A stretch of DNA of 21,230 nucleotides from a virus, in the IMG/VR virus record IMGVR_UViG_3300022921_000133, positions 1 through 21,230 of that record, one strand, 5' to 3'. A program made the translations under genes and the position numbers. Within the stretch, counting starts at the first letter, position 1. Each line of letters begins with the position of its first letter. The notes beneath the pieces were generated by a model that was not told where the DNA came from, searched no databases, and saw nothing but the letters and a program-made list of their open reading frames with translations. Below are positions 10,166-19,133 of this stretch, in pieces.

Positions 10166-10199
10166 CAAATTTAATAAAAATGAAGAAGCGACCACGCAA
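10166..10199 (-). promoter_or_regulatory. Putative promoter of the 330-aa fibre-like gene
   Basis: On the minus strand TTG (10199-10197) and TAAATTTG (10173-10166) are 23 bases apart, within the range known for Flavobacterium promoters. The fibre-like ATG lies 22 bases downstream of the -7 element. The -33 part lies inside the first codons of the divergent winged-helix gene. Confidence 0.5.
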
Positions 10200-10614
10200 G
10201 GGTATGTTTCGTGATTTCAAGATGCGTAAAGAGGAATGGCTAAACAAAGGCTACCTTAAGTATTTACGCTTAGCAACTAGAGATATCGTAGGTAACTACG
10301 ATGTAAGCGAATCAGAACTCAATTTTATGCTGTTTGTCTATGACTATGAGTTCTTTACCATAGACCATGCAGCCGATGCCTACTTTTACAATAGACTAAA
10401 GATGGCACAACGTATTATATACCCACTTCAAAACAAGAAGTACATATATAAGTACTACGACAGATTATCTCCCACGTCATATGAGGAAGCAATGTTTGAC
10501 CAGGAGAGATGGAAATACAAGGTTAGATATGCCTTGACCCAAAAGGCAAGGCTACTAGTACAAAAATACTATAGGAAGATAGAGGGACAGGAACAGATTA
10601 ATGTGCCGTCTTAA
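10180..10614 (+). CDS. Winged-helix DNA-binding-like protein, lone rightward gene (144 aa)
   Basis: The order of elements resembles a MarR-type winged helix: a basic N-terminus (MKKRPRKGMFRDFKMRKEEW), helices at about 25-60 (VSESELNFMLFVYDYEFFT), a probable recognition-helix region (NRLKMAQRIIYPLQNKKYIY), then a wing. It ends in a LTQKARLLVQKYYRKIEG helix, the terminal helix pattern of small phage winged-helix proteins. I start at ATG 10180: an upstream in-frame extension would begin before the -7 element and overlap the opposite gene's start. It is the only rightward gene in the structural half. It diverges from the fibre-like gene across overlapping promoters and converges on a small gene with a 17-base overlap. 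A transcription regulator of early/late switching is plausible; the target is unknown. Confidence 0.65.
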   Translation: MKKRPRKGMFRDFKMRKEEWLNKGYLKYLRLATRDIVGNYDVSESELNFMLFVYDYEFFTIDHAADAYFYNRLKMAQRIIYPLQNKKYIYKYYDRLSPTSYEEAMFDQERWKYKVRYALTQKARLLVQKYYRKIEGQEQINVPS

Positions 10615-12189: not shown

Positions 12190-12467
12190 GGGGTAGGGGA
12201 TTATATATATTGTTGTACGGTTGCGAGCGAGAACCGAAACGGATTGCCAAACCCCACCCCTTCCCTTAGGTCTAAAGACCTACGAAACTTTTAGGCTTTT
12301 ATACCTAGCTAGGCAGATTCTAAGCCTACCTACAAAGACTACGCATAGTACAAAGTACTCACGCTCCAGTCTTCAACACGGAAGCCTTGCAAAGACTATG
12401 GAGTCAATTACACCCCCATATCTTTGATATGACTAACCCAATCCACTCTAGGGTATCTAAATACCCT
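12190..12467. other. Gene-free, hairpin-dense region (candidate structured RNA or origin DNA)
   Basis: No convincing gene lies here. Complementary pairs follow one another: GGGG-TA-GGGG 12190-12199 with CCCC-A-CCCC 12252-12260, enclosing CGGTT/AACCG (12218-12236); TAGGTCT/AGACCTA 12267-12282; TAGGCTT 12292-12298 with AAGCCTA 12322-12328, enclosing the palindrome CCTAGCTAGG; AGTAC/GTACT 12347-12359; CATATC/GATATG 12417-12431; AGGGTAT/ATACCCT 12450-12467. CTAG, usually a scarce tetranucleotide, occurs repeatedly. No tRNA cloverleaf is recognisable. Which strand is transcribed, if any, is not clear. Confidence 0.45.
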
Positions 12468-12529: not shown

Positions 12530-12544
12530 TACTACTACGTAGTA
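12530..12544. promoter_or_regulatory. Palindrome TACTACGTAGTA, copy 1
   Basis: A perfect 12-bp palindrome (12533-12544) preceded by an extra TAC triplet. It lies 79 bases before the first TTGACA element of the rightward module. The same sequence stands before two further promoters, so it is probably a protein-binding operator or activator site. Confidence 0.6.
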
Positions 12545-12579
12545 AGAAAACTATTATAAAAAAAAGTTGCATTTGTAAC

Positions 12580-12618
12580 CTCCCCTAAAGGGGAGAATAA
12601 TCTACCCCTAAAGGGGTA
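12580..12618. repeat. Two tandem dyads CCCCTAAAGGGG before the first early promoter
   Basis: CTCCCCTAAAGGGGAG (12580-12595) and TACCCCTAAAGGGGTA (12603-12618) share the same 12-base core, centred 23 bases apart, about two helical turns. They end six bases before TTGACA, and an extra GGGG half-site follows the TTGACA. The arrangement is that of paired operator sites; RNA hairpins are also possible. Confidence 0.55.
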
Positions 12619-12623
12619 AAAAC

Positions 12624-12671
12624 TTGACAAGGGGTTTATACTATAAGGGTCGGCAGAACAAACGAACCGAC
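12624..12671 (+). promoter_or_regulatory. TTGACA element and inverted repeat upstream of the first early gene
   Basis: TTGACA at 12624-12629 has the same AAAAACTTGACAA context as the later promoters. At the N18 distance there is no TATnTTTG, only TATACTATAAG nearer. A GTCGG/CCGAC inverted repeat (12649-12653 with 12667-12671) lies where the start of transcription would be. So this is a promoter candidate with a deviant -7 region, possibly one requiring an activator. Confidence 0.4.
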
Positions 12672-12691
12672 ACTAACAAAATTTCAATCTT

Positions 12692-13168
12692 ATGGCAACT
12701 ACCAAAGTACCAACAAGCAAAGCACACAAAATCTCTAGAGTCTACGATGACATAGTCATAGACGCTGTTAAAAGTTTCACTTTTACTGCGAAGAAGGACT
12801 ACGGCACTTGTTCCCTTTCAGGGAAGTCTATCTCCAAAGGAGATAAGTGTGAGATGTTAATCCTCGAGGATGGAACTAGAGTAACTACGTTACTGAGCAC
12901 AACTATTGCCAGAGGCAATAAAGCGAAGAAAGTGCAGAGCACTTCTAAGCCTTCGAAGAAGGTTACTGAGCCTACTACTAAGGTAGTAGAAGTAGAGGTT
13001 AAGAAAGAGACAAAGTCTCCGTTTAGCTTCGCTAAAGCATCGGTTAACAGCAAGGCTGTTAGAGAGGCCCTTGTATCCCTTGCTTTAGCAAGTGATAGCG
13101 AGAAGCAATCAATCCTAGAGGCTTTGCCTCTGAATGTGGCTCTAACCATCATCGACCTTACAAAGTAA
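12692..13168 (+). CDS. First early-module protein, unknown (158 aa)
   Basis: The protein has three parts. The N-terminal domain (about 1-75) contains YGTCSLSGKSISKGDKCEML with Cys40 and Cys53 and a following EDGTRVTT strand, a possible half zinc-ribbon. A Lys/Pro/Thr-rich linker follows (about 88-118). The C-terminal helical domain (about 118-158) contains REALVSLALASDSEKQSILE. The ATG follows an AAAATTTCAATCTT leader. It is the first gene of the rightward module and ends before a G/C hairpin. Early position and a basic linker suggest a nucleic-acid or host-takeover protein, but I recognise no family. Confidence 0.65.
   Translation: MATTKVPTSKAHKISRVYDDIVIDAVKSFTFTAKKDYGTCSLSGKSISKGDKCEMLILEDGTRVTTLLSTTIARGNKAKKVQSTSKPSKKVTEPTTKVVEVEVKKETKSPFSFAKASVNSKAVREALVSLALASDSEKQSILEALPLNVALTIIDLTK
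12972..12989. repeat. Inverted repeat CTACTAC-TAAG-GTAGTAG inside the first early gene
   Basis: A 7-bp inverted repeat with a 4-base spacer. Its arms match the half-sites of the TACTACGTAGTA palindrome but with wider spacing. It encodes part of a Thr-Lys-Val stretch, so it may be a coding coincidence or a weaker binding site. Confidence 0.3.
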
Positions 13169-13201
13169 GGTACGAATCAAGACAAAGTATTTATAACCCT
13201 C

Positions 13202-13229
13202 AGAGAGGGTTTCAAAGCCCTCTCTTTAA
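13202..13229 (+). terminator. Intercistronic hairpin AGAGAGGG/CCCTCTCT
   Basis: An 8-bp stem with an 8-base loop is followed by TTAAATTTT. The tail is T-rich but broken by AAA, so termination would be partial. It separates the first and second early genes and merges with the A/T leader of the second. Confidence 0.5.
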
Positions 13230-13244
13230 ATTTTCAATTTAACC

Positions 13245-13586
13245 ATGAGCAAGCAAACTGAAATCATGAAGACTATTGTCTTCGAAGGACTGGAACTAAT
13301 CAAACAAAATCTAAGACTTTGTACGAAACTTCAAAATTCTCACGAGATGGACTACATCATCGAAGATGAGCTAGAAGACTTAATCGAAAACCCAATCGGT
13401 CATATCGAGGATATGGTAGGATATGGAGAGGATTTGGCTCAAGAGCCTATCAAAGACTTGACTCCTTTGCAGAGAGCCTTAGCATTCCTCTATCTTGATA
13501 GAGAGGTAAATGTAAGAAGGAGTATCGAAGGACTTCTTCGAATGCACATCAAGTCAAGCAAAGAATTCAGAACATTAGCAAAGTAA
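13245..13586 (+). CDS. Acidic helical early protein, unknown (113 aa)
   Basis: The protein is mostly helical and acidic in the middle (YIIEDELEDLIENPIGHIED). The N-terminal helix begins MSKQTEIMKTIVFEGLELIK. The C-terminal helix ends in a basic patch (IEGLLRMHIKSSKEFRTLAK). No cysteine pairs or membrane segments. The ATG is preceded by AAATTTTCAATTTAACC, the leader type shared across the module. It lies between two small unrecognised genes and likely shares their transcript. I recognise no family. Confidence 0.6.
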   Translation: MSKQTEIMKTIVFEGLELIKQNLRLCTKLQNSHEMDYIIEDELEDLIENPIGHIEDMVGYGEDLAQEPIKDLTPLQRALAFLYLDREVNVRRSIEGLLRMHIKSSKEFRTLAK

Positions 13587-13605
13587 CCTTAAAATTTCAA
13601 AGACT

Positions 13606-13878
13606 ATGAACGGCTATCAATTTATCATCGTTATGAACGACTTAATGTTAAACATTAAGTTAGGAATGAGAATGACCGACCCTAACAAAGGCTTGACCAG
13701 GCTTAAGGGTGAGTACAAGCAGATGCTTGGTCTACCAAAGAATACAAAGAACAAAGACTTGTTTATCGCTCTCTTTGAGTCTGTTGTTAGCATTAACAAA
13801 GACAAGTTAAACGAGGACTTTGTAAGCTCTTGCGAGGAATTCTATGGAGAATTAATGACTGCTGAGCTAAGCAAATAA
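13606..13878 (+). CDS. Small helical early protein, unknown (90 aa)
   Basis: A 90-residue soluble protein, predicted as several helices: MNGYQFIIVMNDLMLNIKLG, then a basic loop (TDPNKGLTRLKGEYKQMLGL) and a C-terminal acidic helix. The ATG follows AAAATTTCAAAGACT, the clearest example of the module's initiation leader. It is followed by an 8-bp G/C hairpin before the next gene. Function unknown. Confidence 0.6.
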   Translation: MNGYQFIIVMNDLMLNIKLGMRMTDPNKGLTRLKGEYKQMLGLPKNTKNKDLFIALFESVVSINKDKLNEDFVSSCEEFYGELMTAELSK

Positions 13879-13886
13879 TACTAATC

Positions 13887-13907
13887 GGAGGGGGTTTATC
13901 CCCCTCC
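13887..13907 (+). terminator. Intercistronic hairpin GGAGGGGG/CCCCCTCC
   Basis: A very stable 8-bp stem with a TTTAT loop, followed by TAAAAC rather than a T-run. It is more likely an RNA-processing or 3'-end-protecting hairpin than a true terminator. It is one of several hairpins with GGAGGGG-type arms in this module. Confidence 0.45.
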
Positions 13908-13920
13908 TAAAACAAAGACT

Positions 13921-14250
13921 ATGGAAGCAAAGACTTATAACAGCATCTTACAAGATGCTACTGAAAGATTCGACAACACTATCCAACAAGTGGATAGCAA
14001 CGGCAAACTACTCTATTACTTCTATGTAATAGTAGAGTATGGACTAGCAATAAAGTACTACAAAACCTATGTAATAGGTAAAGGTCGTTACAAGCAGCCA
14101 ACAAGAACAAAGTTCTACAAGACTATGCATAGAATGTTGGACACTTGGGACAATCGAGTAGTGTCATGCGGATACTCGGTTACGGCTCCGCTTGGGTATG
14201 AGCACACACCTCCCCCATACAAGTTTATTGATGACCTTACTACTACGTAG
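13921..14250 (+). CDS. Early protein with Tyr-rich core, unknown (109 aa)
   Basis: The 109-residue protein has an N-terminal helix, then a Tyr-rich alternating segment (KLLYYFYVIVEYGLAIKYYK) suggesting beta strands, and a basic stretch (IGKGRYKQPTRTKFYKTMHR). A C-terminal segment contains PLGYEHTPPPYKF. The initiation site is the AAAGACTATGG form. Its last codons ACT ACT ACG TAG are the TACTACGTAGTA palindrome, so the stop codon lies within the regulatory repeat. It is the last gene before promoter 2. Family unknown. Confidence 0.6.
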   Translation: MEAKTYNSILQDATERFDNTIQQVDSNGKLLYYFYVIVEYGLAIKYYKTYVIGKGRYKQPTRTKFYKTMHRMLDTWDNRVVSCGYSVTAPLGYEHTPPPYKFIDDLTTT

Positions 14251-14253
14251 TAG
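14238..14253. promoter_or_regulatory. Palindrome TACTACGTAGTA, copy 2
   Basis: The palindrome (14241-14252) extends to a 14-bp perfect dyad CTACTACGTAGTAG. It overlaps the stop codon of the preceding gene and lies 33 bases before the TTGACA of promoter 2. Confidence 0.6.
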
Positions 14254-14285
14254 AAACTTAATAAGAAAAATTTATCGATAAAAAC

Positions 14286-14317
14286 TTGACAAACGGCAAT
14301 CGACCATTATATCTTTG
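14286..14317 (+). promoter_or_regulatory. Early promoter 2: TTGACA-N18-TATCTTTG
   Basis: TTGACA (14286-14291) and TATCTTTG (14310-14317) are 18 bases apart. This combines a full -35 hexamer with the Bacteroidota -7 element. CGGCAATC occurs in the spacer and again just downstream of the start region (14328-14335). It drives the 106-residue gene whose ATG lies at 14366. Confidence 0.7.
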
Positions 14318-14365
14318 TCCCATCAATCGGCAATCAAGCCACAAAATTTCAAACACTTTTCAATT

Positions 14366-14686
14366 ATGGCAAAACAAGAACGCCTTCCGAAACTAGAGTA
14401 CTTTACTATGAGACTCGAACAAGCTGTCAAAGATGGCTTGACTGACAAAGCTGACTACTATCGTAGTCGTATCGCTCAACTCAAAGAGGCTGAGCAACCA
14501 TCTGAAGAGAGAATCTCTCTTCAAGTAGCAGGAATGTTTGGCTCTCGTGATACTTTGCAAGAAGCTTTTGACTATGCAGAGATGATGAGCAAATCATTGG
14601 ACTCTCCGATTCATGCTATCACTCCTGTCTATGTCTTGTACAATACTATTGCTAAGCAATACGACCTTGTCCCAAAGGCTAAGTAA
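14366..14686 (+). CDS. Small helical early protein, unknown (106 aa)
   Basis: I start at ATG 14366, because the longer frame would begin at the promoter's -7 element. The protein (MAKQERLPKLEYFTMRLEQA...) opens with charged helices and an ISLQVAGMFGSRDTLQEAFD segment, and ends VPKAK. It is predicted all-helical and soluble. The leader contains AAAATTTCAAACACTTTTCAATT. It is the first gene of the second early unit and ends at a terminator-like hairpin. Family not recognised. Confidence 0.6.
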   Translation: MAKQERLPKLEYFTMRLEQAVKDGLTDKADYYRSRIAQLKEAEQPSEERISLQVAGMFGSRDTLQEAFDYAEMMSKSLDSPIHAITPVYVLYNTIAKQYDLVPKAK

Positions 14687-14693
14687 CTACTAC

Positions 14694-14720
14694 GGAGGGG
14701 CTGAGTCCCCTCCTTTCTTT
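14694..14720 (+). terminator. Terminator-like hairpin GGAGGGG/CCCCTCC
   Basis: A 7-bp G/C stem with a 6-base loop is followed by TTTCTTT, the best rightward terminator candidate in the early module. Genes downstream may then depend on read-through. Confidence 0.6.
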
Positions 14721-14743
14721 AACTAATCAAATTTTCAATGACT

Positions 14744-14890
14744 ATGAATTATTCAAAGATGTATGCCGAGCGAGTTCTAAAGATGAACGAACCTAAAGAT
14801 GAAATAGCTTGGCTATTCACTAAACTTTCCGAAGAAGACCAAGAAAACCTAATAGAAATCTTCGATTTAAATTTTCAAGACAATGAGTAA
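14744..14890 (+). CDS. Acidic small protein, unknown (48 aa)
   Basis: A 48-residue acidic frame, MNYSKMYAERVLKMNEPKDE through to FDLNFQDNE. The start could also be the ATG six bases upstream; I prefer the second because of the recurring GACT-ATG pattern. Its 3' end encodes the AAATTTTCAAGACA leader of the next gene, and its stop overlaps that gene's start in ATGAGTAA. The coupling implies it is truly translated. Mostly helical; no family recognised. Confidence 0.6.
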   Translation: MNYSKMYAERVLKMNEPKDEIAWLFTKLSEEDQENLIEIFDLNFQDNE

Positions 14891-15587
14891 AGTAGTATGG
14901 CTTGAGGGCGACAATGTCTTTGTTGTCCGCAAGGGTAAAACAAGTAACGACAAGATATCCGATGGTTCAGCATTGGTACAGACTTACACTTTCAGTGTAC
15001 AACAATGGGCTTTGGCTACTACAAGCAAGGGCTTCGGTATGAAGAAGTTCTTTTCTCTTGACCATAGCAATTGTCTTGACTGCCCATTCTCTTTGGGCAA
15101 TGGTAACGGAGGCTGTTACACTCACAAGTTTCAGCAGTACGTTGGCTTCCTCTCACTACTACGTAGTATCAAGCGTGAGGACTTGACTCCTCTTGACCGC
15201 AACAAACAAGCCGACATAGTCGAGATGTGCTTCAACACTTATGTTCGTTTCGGTACTTATGGTGAGCCATCTTTGATGCCAACCAAAGTAGTCGAGGCTA
15301 TGGTATGGGTAGCAAAGTCTTGGACTGGATACACACACCAATGGAACAAGGATTGGGCTAAGGACTATGGCCAATGGTTCATGGCTAGTGTACATAGTCA
15401 AGACGAGGCTCTTACGGCAAGTGAAAAAGCATACCGCTCATTCATTGCTACTACCGATGGTAGTGAGGATGCTGTGTCTTGTCCTGCCTCTAAAGAGATG
15501 GGCTACAAAAGTAACTGCGCCAAGTGTGGACTATGTAGTGGACTTGTCGGTAAGGGTAAGCGAGACATCAAGATTTTACAACACTAA
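14883..15587 (+). CDS. Eight-cysteine phage protein, putative metal or Fe-S binder (234 aa)
   Basis: The protein (234 residues) contains two Cys groups: NCLDCPFSLGNGNGGCYTHK (C64, C67, C78) and CPASKEMGYKSNCAKCGLC (C200, C212, C215, C218), plus C116. Between them are YVRFGTYGEPSLMP (120-133) and a W-rich segment with YTHQWNKDW (150-158), then FMASVHSQDEA (166-176). I recall this architecture from uncharacterised proteins of many phages and mobile elements, where metal or Fe-S binding is likely. Function is unknown. It carries one copy of the TACTACGTAGTA palindrome in its coding sequence (codons for Leu-Leu-Arg-Ser). It overlaps the preceding gene by 8 bases. Confidence 0.7.
   Translation: MSKVVWLEGDNVFVVRKGKTSNDKISDGSALVQTYTFSVQQWALATTSKGFGMKKFFSLDHSNCLDCPFSLGNGNGGCYTHKFQQYVGFLSLLRSIKREDLTPLDRNKQADIVEMCFNTYVRFGTYGEPSLMPTKVVEAMVWVAKSWTGYTHQWNKDWAKDYGQWFMASVHSQDEALTASEKAYRSFIATTDGSEDAVSCPASKEMGYKSNCAKCGLCSGLVGKGKRDIKILQH
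15157..15168. promoter_or_regulatory. Palindrome TACTACGTAGTA, copy 4, inside a gene
   Basis: An exact 12-bp copy within the eight-cysteine gene, not close to a promoter. It may be a decoy or auxiliary binding site, or a coincidence of Leu-Leu-Arg-Ser coding. Confidence 0.4.
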
Positions 15588-15604
15588 TTTAAATTTCAAA
15601 GACT

Positions 15605-15805
15605 ATGTCAATTAGAAAACTAAACAAAAGAGAAGAAGTAGCAGAATGGTATGCTATGAATGTATTCAACAACATTGAATGGGCTGAGACTGAGTCTGCT
15701 GTAGAGTGGCTCGTTATGAACCTCAGCCGTAACGCCTTTAATGAATTAAAGGAAGTATACGATGAACAAATGTCTAACCTAGAAGCTGAAGGCTTCTTTA
15801 AATAA
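15605..15805 (+). CDS. Small acidic helical protein, unknown (66 aa)
   Basis: A 66-residue protein predicted as two or three helices: MSIRKLNKREEVAEWYAMNV, then an acidic helix with ETESAVEWLVMNLSRNAFNE and a C-terminal acidic helix ending AEGFFK. The leader AAATTTCAAAGACT directly precedes the ATG. No metal or membrane motifs. It could be a small regulator or anti-host factor, but nothing specific supports it. Confidence 0.6.
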   Translation: MSIRKLNKREEVAEWYAMNVFNNIEWAETESAVEWLVMNLSRNAFNELKEVYDEQMSNLEAEGFFK

Positions 15806-15812
15806 AAACAAT

Positions 15813-16019
15813 ATGAGTAATTCAAATAGCAAGTGGGCTATCACTATCCTCGACTTTGCATTAGGCAAAGTCTTTACCTACACACTAAGCGACAACGCTA
15901 TCTTTCACAACGATGGCGATGAGATTGTCGAATACTTCGGACACAATCTAGACGATTGTCAATACATGATACATCGACTAGGCAACATGGAGCTATCGCA
16001 CCAAGTACAACCTATGTAA
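15813..16019 (+). CDS. Small early protein, unknown (68 aa)
   Basis: A 68-residue protein with beta-type N-terminal strands (KWAITILDFALGKVFTYTLS) and an acidic segment (HNDGDEIVEYFGHNLDDCQY). The ATG lies 7 bases after the preceding stop in an A-rich context. The combination of a short beta hairpin and a helix resembles other small phage proteins, but no family is recognised. Confidence 0.55.
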   Translation: MSNSNSKWAITILDFALGKVFTYTLSDNAIFHNDGDEIVEYFGHNLDDCQYMIHRLGNMELSHQVQPM

Positions 16020-16030
16020 TTACTAATACT

Positions 16031-16213
16031 ATGAAACAAAGAGGTACTGTACATGTGGACTGCACATTGTCTTTCAAGGGTAGCGTTGATGCTACCCTAT
16101 GGAACGACATGACTATGGCTGAGGTAATCCACGACATCATTCATAGTGGAGACTATGAATACGAGGTAATTCAAGGAAATATGGACATTGATAATATCGA
16201 AGACTATGATTAA
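16031..16213 (+). CDS. Small early protein, unknown (60 aa)
   Basis: I choose the ATG at 16031 because the TAATACT-ATG context matches the local initiation pattern, whereas an upstream in-frame start would overlap the previous gene by about 60 bases. The 60 residues start MKQRGTVHVDCTLSFKGSVD and end in an acidic tail (MDIDNIEDYD). The first half reads as a beta hairpin, the second as a helix. Its stop is embedded in the next gene's start (ATGATTAA, 8-base overlap). Confidence 0.6.
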   Translation: MKQRGTVHVDCTLSFKGSVDATLWNDMTMAEVIHDIIHSGDYEYEVIQGNMDIDNIEDYD

Positions 16214-16466
16214 AATAACAAGCTTAAAGAAGCAACGCTTTCAAGATGACAAGCCAACATCCAAGCTCTACTCAGTAGAGTCTTGGATAAACCCTGACAA
16301 CATTGTGTCAATCGTACCAACAAAGACAAGCATCTATGACTATGACAACGGCATAGACTATGTAGCGCAAGGCAGTAAGGTAACGATGTCAAACGGCAAC
16401 CGACTGACATCCGACATGACTCCTTCCGAGTTGGTCGCACTCATAGACGAGTGCTACACACACTAG
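16206..16466 (+). CDS. Small beta-rich early protein, unknown (86 aa)
   Basis: The ATG at 16206 lies within the end of the preceding gene in the GACT-ATG context. The 86 residues (MIKITSLKKQRFQDDKPTSK...) include alternating strand-like stretches around WINPDNIVSIVPTKTSIYDY and a C-terminal helix TPSELVALIDECY. The pattern recalls small phage proteins with an SH3-like barrel, but I do not assign it. It is the last gene before promoter 3; some 30 bases downstream lies palindrome copy 3. Confidence 0.6.
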   Translation: MIKITSLKKQRFQDDKPTSKLYSVESWINPDNIVSIVPTKTSIYDYDNGIDYVAQGSKVTMSNGNRLTSDMTPSELVALIDECYTH

Positions 16467-16495
16467 GGTGGGCACACGAAAACTATTGGGCCACC

Positions 16496-16510
16496 TACTA
16501 CTACGTAGTA
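16496..16510. promoter_or_regulatory. Palindrome TACTACGTAGTA, copy 3
   Basis: The exact palindrome (16499-16510), again preceded by an extra TAC triplet, lies 23 bases before the TTGACA of promoter 3. Confidence 0.6.
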
Positions 16511-16533: not shown

Positions 16534-16565
16534 TTGACAACGGCTCGACTACAATACTATCTTGT
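16534..16565 (+). promoter_or_regulatory. Early promoter 3: TTGACA-N18-TATCTTGT
   Basis: TTGACA (16534-16539) and TATCTTGT (16558-16565) have the same 18-base spacing as promoters 2 and 4. The -7 element has TATCTTG in place of TATCTTTG. The spacer starts ACGGC like the others. The transcript leader of about 50 bases includes AGGAGG, far from the ATG and unlikely to serve as ribosome binding site. Confidence 0.6.
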
Positions 16566-16622
16566 ATACGCAAGGAGGCAGAGAGCCACCAATTCACAAT
16601 CAACTTTTAATTTTCAAACAAC

Positions 16623-17168
16623 ATGAAAAACGCAATCATCAAATTCTTAGGCATCGACAAGATTCAAGAAGAAAACCAAAAACTAACTGCATTACTACAT
16701 GATGCTAAGAAACACATCGAGCGACTATCTCGCTCAGTTAACGACCTAGAGCAAACCGATTGGAACGAAATTGCTCGAGACAATATTGACTACAACGACA
16801 TTGCAAGTAGCATAGATATGTACGACTTAGTCGAGTACATTGACAATTCAGACATTGCAGGACACATAGACACCGAAGATGTAGCTCGTTCATTAGACCT
16901 ATCGGACATTGTAGAATACATTGATTACAATCAATTGCAAGACCAAATGACTGATGCTATTGATATGGATATCCTTGCTCAGACTGTGTCTGAAAAGATT
17001 GCAGACCGAGATGGTATGCACCAACTAATCTCTGAAGAGATTGAGAATCAAGGTGTGGGTAATAGTGTCAGCACTGATGCTGTTCAGTCTATGATTGATA
17101 CCTCTATCGAGCAGTTCGCTGATAGCCTTGAGGTAATGGTATCTGCTAAACTTAACTACGAAAAGTAA
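16623..17168 (+). CDS. Coiled-coil protein with 9-residue acidic repeats, unknown (181 aa)
   Basis: An N-terminal helical segment (about 10-50; IQEENQKLTALLHDAKKHIE) is followed by six consecutive 9-residue units at 55-108 of the form ID-x-x-D-I/L/V-x-x-x: IDYNDIASS, IDMYDLVEY, IDNSDIAGH, IDTEDVARS, LDLSDIVEY, IDYNQLQDQ. The C-terminus (about 110-181) is again helical and acidic. The protein is very acidic overall. It is the first gene of the third unit, with leader TTTTAATTTTCAAACAAC. I do not know the family. A stacked-helix or solenoid scaffold or DNA-mimic role is possible but speculative. Confidence 0.65.
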   Translation: MKNAIIKFLGIDKIQEENQKLTALLHDAKKHIERLSRSVNDLEQTDWNEIARDNIDYNDIASSIDMYDLVEYIDNSDIAGHIDTEDVARSLDLSDIVEYIDYNQLQDQMTDAIDMDILAQTVSEKIADRDGMHQLISEEIENQGVGNSVSTDAVQSMIDTSIEQFADSLEVMVSAKLNYEK

Positions 17169-19001: not shown

Positions 19002-19067
19002 TTAAAATTTTTCTCGCTGATAATCAAGTAGTTAGCTATGTTGACGAAAAAAAATATGGCTAATTAC

Positions 19068-19099
19068 TTGACATCGGCATTCATTTCAATTTATATTTG
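19068..19099 (+). promoter_or_regulatory. Early promoter 4: TTGACA-N18-TATATTTG
   Basis: TTGACA (19068-19073) and TATATTTG (19092-19099) are 18 bases apart as in promoters 2 and 3. CGGCA follows TTGACA and recurs downstream of the -7 element (19103-19107). No TACTACGTAGTA palindrome stands upstream, so this unit may not share that control. The DUF932 ATG lies 34 bases beyond. Confidence 0.7.
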
Positions 19100-19133
19100 C
19101 AACGGCAATGATGCCAAATTAAAACTCAATTCA

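Follow-up and report, generated by a model that had tools for sequence, protein, structure and literature searches.

The 15-bp sequence TACTACTACGTAGTA is very probably a promoter control site, judging from the positions that it takes up in related phages and in the window, by which is meant the whole 21,230-base stretch analysed (IMG/VR virus record IMGVR_UViG_3300022921_000133). It may well be an oriented and sequence-specific site that lies upstream of a subset of the early promoters and is bound by a dimeric activator in a class-I-like fashion. The subset comprises P2 and P4, which are clear, and probably P1. A literature search gave no mention of the 15-mer sequence in this context, and the window matches no Rfam family and has no tRNA.

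Copies of the element and its symmetric unit

The original prediction was built on a 12-bp palindrome, TACTACGTAGTA, which does occur exactly at 12533-12544, 14241-14252, 15157-15168 and 16499-16510. A first-order Markov model gives an expectation of 0.0018 copies in the window, so that four are far above chance, and the expected number of 12-bp palindromes with at least three copies is 1.2e-5. The predicted gaps to the next TTGACA and the stop codon falling within copy 2 were also confirmed, as was the extra upstream TAC of copies 1, 2 and 4, where copy 3 has CAC. The copies are as follows:

12530..12544, + strand: copy 1 of the 15-bp element TACTACTACGTAGTA, at P1 in front of the first early gene, 22 nt to TTGCAT and 79 nt to TTGACA
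14238..14252, + strand: copy 2 of the 15-bp element, with the stop of ORF 13921-14250 inside it, 33 nt to TTGACA
15157..15168, + strand: copy 3, 12-mer only, LLRS codons in gene 14883-15587 (phrog_2554), left out of the element set
16496..16510, + strand: copy 4 of the 15-bp element, 23 nt to TTGACA

The set of four has to be reduced to copies 1, 2 and 4. Read in its frame, copy 3 is a codon coincidence within a gene, and it is excluded because it lies inside ORF 14883-15587, where its codons read L-L-R-S, and because different codons interrupt it in relatives (L121, CTACTTCGTAGC; L125, ATGCTTCGTAGT). It is kept in G001, whose protein is 95% identical to the product of 14883-15587. Phages with a relative of this gene (L147, L152 and L154, from G016, G017 and G019) have repeated intergenic palindromes of their own (AGTGTACTATAGTACACT four times, TACTATAGTA five times and a GAAAGTATAATGCATTATACTTTC-type sequence twice), one of which precedes an A-rich spacer and TTG..TACCTTTG.

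In every case the extra TAC lies on the promoter-distal side, and the pattern of paired changes indicates that the symmetric unit is the 15-mer TACTAC-TAC-GTAGTA, with 6-bp arms and a 3-nt centre, and not the 12-mer. At P4 of G030 the site, aligned by homology and not by its ability to form a hairpin, reads TACTCC-TAC-GGAGTA. One pair is changed on both sides, a compensatory change that fits the 15-mer but not the 12-mer. When ten related hairpins are compared in the 15-mer register, 100% of the pairs form and 4/6 are changed on both sides, as against 0 in the 12-mer register, but these counts are biased and overstate the case because two of the variants (P1 of G002 and P1 of L150) were picked for forming hairpins.

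Copies 2 and 4 come 0-30 nt after the stop codon of the preceding gene, and intergenic hairpins are common elsewhere in this genome, some of them with T-runs, as would suit tail-less terminators that insulate each early unit from preceding transcription. However, the element copies do not show the GC-rich stem and T-run of an intrinsic terminator. Their stem is weak and AT-rich, no T-run stands behind them, and P1 has no same-strand gene just upstream. A terminator role is unlikely, with a very slight chance at best, because the sequence that follows is A-rich and terminator calling leaves out the element copies.

Early promoters, geometry and conservation

The host of the window phage is probably a member of the Bacteroidota, since the matches of the terminase include phages of Flavobacterium and Cellulophaga, and two of the three early promoters (TTGACA-18-TATCTT or TATATT) show the TAnnTTTG form typical of that phylum. 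The promoters and the genes downstream of them are arranged as follows:

12580..12595, + strand: second inverted repeat at P1, CTCCCC-TAAA-GGGGAG, paired but altered in relatives (ATCCCC..GGGGAT, CTACCC..GGGTAG)
12603..12618, + strand: third inverted repeat at P1, TACCCC-TAAA-GGGGTA, 5 nt to TTGACA in 4/4 genomes
12624..12629, + strand: TTGACA of P1, conserved in four genomes
12692..13168, + strand: first early gene, downstream of P1, 158 aa, lysine-rich, no confident family
14286..14317, + strand: P2 promoter, TTGACA-18-TATCTTTG, Bacteroidota-like -33/-7
14366..14686, + strand: early gene downstream of P2, 106 aa, no known family
16534..16564, + strand: P4 promoter, TTGACA-18-TATCTTG
16623..17168, + strand: early gene downstream of P4, 181 aa, no known family

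The promoter is less clear for copy 1 than for copies 2 and 4 because TTGCAT, the TTG box at 22 nt, is without a clear -7 partner. The two CCCC-TAAA-GGGG inverted repeats at 12580-12618 lie 28 and 5 nt before the TTGACA of P1 and have paired changes in G001, G002 and G030. Further upstream, there is a non-coding block, GGGGATTATATATAT...CCGAAACG (12195-12260), that has no Rfam match and is found again ahead of the first early gene in relatives including G001, G008, L352 and L358. The leaders just 3' of the TTGACA promoters contain small GGC...GCC inverted repeats (14331-14345, 16568-16580 and 19100-19115). P5 (19068) is a strong promoter with no copy of the 15-mer. Directly before its TTGACA (19015-19068), GTAGTTAGC and GCTAATTAC can pair, and this pairing is kept in G001 and G030 with G-T pairs.

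All distinct exact 15-mer sites (24/24) share one orientation relative to the promoter. Within the family of the window phage, the distance from the 15-mer to TTG is 22, 22, 22, 23, 23, 23 and 33 nt for seven sites in four genomes: 22 (TTGCAT), 33 and 23 nt in the window, 22 and 23 nt in G001, 22 nt in G002 and 23 nt in G008. The 33 nt of copy 2, compared with 22 nt in G001 and G002, result from an 11-nt insertion, which is about one helical turn. The spacer is A/T-rich in this family. One sequence is thus repeated at several promoters at a fixed distance, as in an operator or upstream activating site, and the promoters in question are mutually non-homologous (three of them in the window, two in G001 and one each in G002 and the distant G008).

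Comparison of orthologous promoters shows a different degree of conservation at each. The exact 15-mer is present at P2 in all three genomes (window, G001 and G002), while the upstream flanks have diverged, and at P4 in two of three (window and G001), with the symmetric variant in G030, the closest relative of the window in the early region. At P1 it is found in the window alone among four genomes, and the other three have different inverted repeats at the same offset: TAACCCCC-CTTTA-GGGGGTTA in G001, TTACCC-TAC-GGGTAA in G002 and TAACCC-TAAA-GGGTTA in G030. In G008, with a terminase 70% identical, the first early promoter has the exact 15-mer and two further promoters have other inverted repeats.

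Long inverted repeats were also seen in L375, ahead of the first early gene, and in L130 and L215, ahead of the orthologue of p19038 (DUF932); none were found at the promoters of L391, L411 and L424. Most of the relatives picked by terminase were without the early region or without the site, and a wider DNA pattern for the promoter module recovered it in G001 and G002 only. As far as these genomes indicate, the exact site is confined to a small genome cluster and inverted repeats near early promoters are more widespread. By our own estimate, the number of 15-mer matches in IMG/VR is, for the bulk of those listed, at about chance level.

The same site in a second phage group

A second, unrelated group of marine phages with the 15-mer came to light when a very large collection was scanned for this sequence. 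Its contigs are related to the Roseobacter phages CRP-345 and CRP-1 and to HMO-2011. They have the exact 15-mer at 17 distinct sites, 9-10 nt before TTGAC, ahead of one or two promoters each in 12/13 of the loci retrieved. The 15 letters are unchanged even though a neighbouring protein drops to 57% identity. This invariance favours recognition of the sequence, because paired changes would also have preserved a hairpin. On the other hand, no 15-mer was found in the first 12-14 kb of CRP-1, CRP-3, CRP-207, CRP-345, CRP-603 or HMO-2011, nor upstream of the first early gene in the stretches read of HMO-2011, CRP-1 and CRP-345. In these last three (L436, L437 and L438) a short hairpin with paired changes is located upstream of the first early gene: GTAATC-GTA-GATTAC, GGTATC-GAA-GATACC and GCAATC-TTA-GATTGC.

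An all-against-all BLAST detected no regulator common to the two groups. The matches between them were structural or virion-type proteins and small unnamed proteins, together with the winged-helix protein (10180-10614 in the window) in G008, itself related to the window phage. The same site before TTGACA-type promoters without a detected common regulator would be accounted for if a host transcription factor, exploited by both groups, bound the 15-mer. This is improbable. The two groups appear to infect different phyla: Bacteroidota for the window group, from homology and promoter type, and Alphaproteobacteria for the second, because of its relation to the CRP and HMO-2011 phages. A scan of 257 Gb of bacterial and archaeal genomes gave only 4 sites before TTGAC, which is no more than chance, and none of them was regulon-like. 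A host regulon was rejected, with no support in the 84,980 genomes. The presence of the 15-mer in both groups may also be due to convergence, since the second group was obtained by scanning so large a collection for this 15-mer.

Proposed mechanisms: protein-bound site or hairpin signal

The leading, though unproven, interpretation is a site for a phage regulator. The original prediction of a phage-encoded regulator controlling several early units was partly supported, by the promoter association, common orientation and fixed distance of the element in relatives. It has to be narrowed to three units, with P5 lacking a copy and the exact site at P1 only in the window and G008. In the mechanism that we favour, a dimeric DNA-binding protein encoded by the phage would bind the two 6-bp arms and touch the host RNA polymerase from about 30 bp upstream of the -33/-35 box, in the manner of a class-I activator. 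That the 15-mer does not vary between unrelated promoters or within the second group suggests recognition of the sequence. The fixed distance and the one-turn insertion suggest that RNA polymerase is contacted from a single helical face, and together these observations favour a protein-bound, class-I-like site. We infer all three of protein binding, activation rather than repression, and a phage-encoded binder.

Class-I activator sites are known from bacterial and phage promoters, for example that of CRP near -61.5. Like them, the element is an inverted repeat set at a constant distance ahead of the -35 box, and in one case it is displaced by about a turn of the helix. Its centre is about 30 bp before the TTG box and, by estimate, at roughly -65 from the transcription start. 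It differs in that the centre triplet gives the 15-mer a fixed orientation and in that the activator is here only putative. The orientation of a TAC centre should not matter to a symmetric dimer, yet all sites point one way. Other observations against an activator are the unrelated inverted repeats at equivalent places (P1 of G001, G002 and G030 and two promoters of G008), the absence of a copy at P5 and the absence of the site from most of the more distant relatives examined. BlaI/MecI operators have the half-sites TACTAC/GTAGTA, letters similar to those of the 15-mer, but their spacing is off by one base and no BlaI/MecI protein was seen, so that the similarity is a lead only.

No protein that binds the element was found, and the presence of the site is not matched by that of the one DNA-binding candidate encoded in the window:

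10180..10614, + strand: MarR-like winged-helix protein, the regulator proposed in the original prediction, no link to the element found

The AlphaFold model of this protein (also given as 10174-10611) has a pLDDT of 73.8 and a pTM of 0.66, and its best structural matches come from the MarR family, MepR among them, with E-values of 5e-3 and up. The fold is therefore predicted to be a MarR-like winged helix, although the protein is only 9-19% identical to the best structures. Unlike what would be expected of a MarR-family regulator of the element, it is not distributed as the site is: its identity is 72-74% in G024 and G025, in which no 15-mer was found, and 66% and 61% in G001 and G002, which both carry the 15-mer. 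It was not found in G003 and G004, the two HMO-2011-type contigs searched, and the predicted DNA-reading helix is nearly alike in G002, with the site, and L215, without it. A role at the element is possible for this phage but finds no support in these comparisons, and the protein may regulate something else.

The inverted repeat might instead act through its structure, with a short hairpin, either extruded from DNA or folded in read-through RNA, serving to mark or insulate the start of each early unit, its arms free to vary as long as they pair. This alternative is tentative. It is suggested by the fixed orientation, the paired changes, as in G030 P4 and the ten hairpins in the 15-mer register, and the unrelated repeats at equivalent promoter positions in G001, G002, G030 and G008. 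The long inverted repeats of L375, L130 and L215 are consistent with it. In G025 (16720-16745) and L150 (1655-1680), the first early gene is preceded by near-identical long hairpins that have a common stem with the loop triplet inverted (GTA in one and TAC in the other). Predicted single-strand folding of the main 15-mer gives -2.2 to -2.4 kcal/mol as DNA and -4.2 as RNA. Pairing alone, however, does not account for the recurrence of an exact 15-mer at unrelated promoters or for its invariance in the HMO-2011-type group, and the pairing counts carry the selection bias described above. Hairpins with a stem of 6 are also enriched upstream of promoter-like motifs that are without an A/T-rich upstream stretch (20/105 compared with 4.8 in shuffles), which means that such hairpins are not promoter-specific.

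A more specific structural proposal, to which we give a small chance, is that the 15-mer acts as an N4-like hairpin signal in DNA, its template-strand loop being C(GTA)G, which two unrelated phage groups use at early promoters that ordinary host RNA polymerase reads, and that the form extruded by supercoiling, not a bound dimer, switches the promoter. In N4 early promoters, hairpin extrusion needs a closing C:G pair and a loop with 5'G and 3'A (PMC4496689). The template strand of the element, TACTAC-GTA-GTAGTA, is similar to these virion RNA polymerase hairpins: it is a short inverted repeat of the kind with a 5-7 bp stem, a 3-nt loop and C(GNA)G on the template. The difference is that no virion RNA polymerase was found here and that ordinary TTGACA/TATCTTTG promoters lie 22-33 nt downstream. 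Searches for such a polymerase gave no phrog_2206 match in 8 contigs, mostly fragments (the N4 control was positive), nothing among the large proteins of G030 and G004 in family scans, and no PF00940 match in a search that had no working control. An N4-type virion polymerase was rejected on these searches.

To our knowledge, early-gene control in marine Bacteroidota phages has been little described. A defined site with its geometry and natural variants makes the sequence-specific control site proposed here directly testable. Since an unrelated phage group has the same 15 letters at its promoters, it may be asked whether a regulator or a DNA structure is common across phage families.
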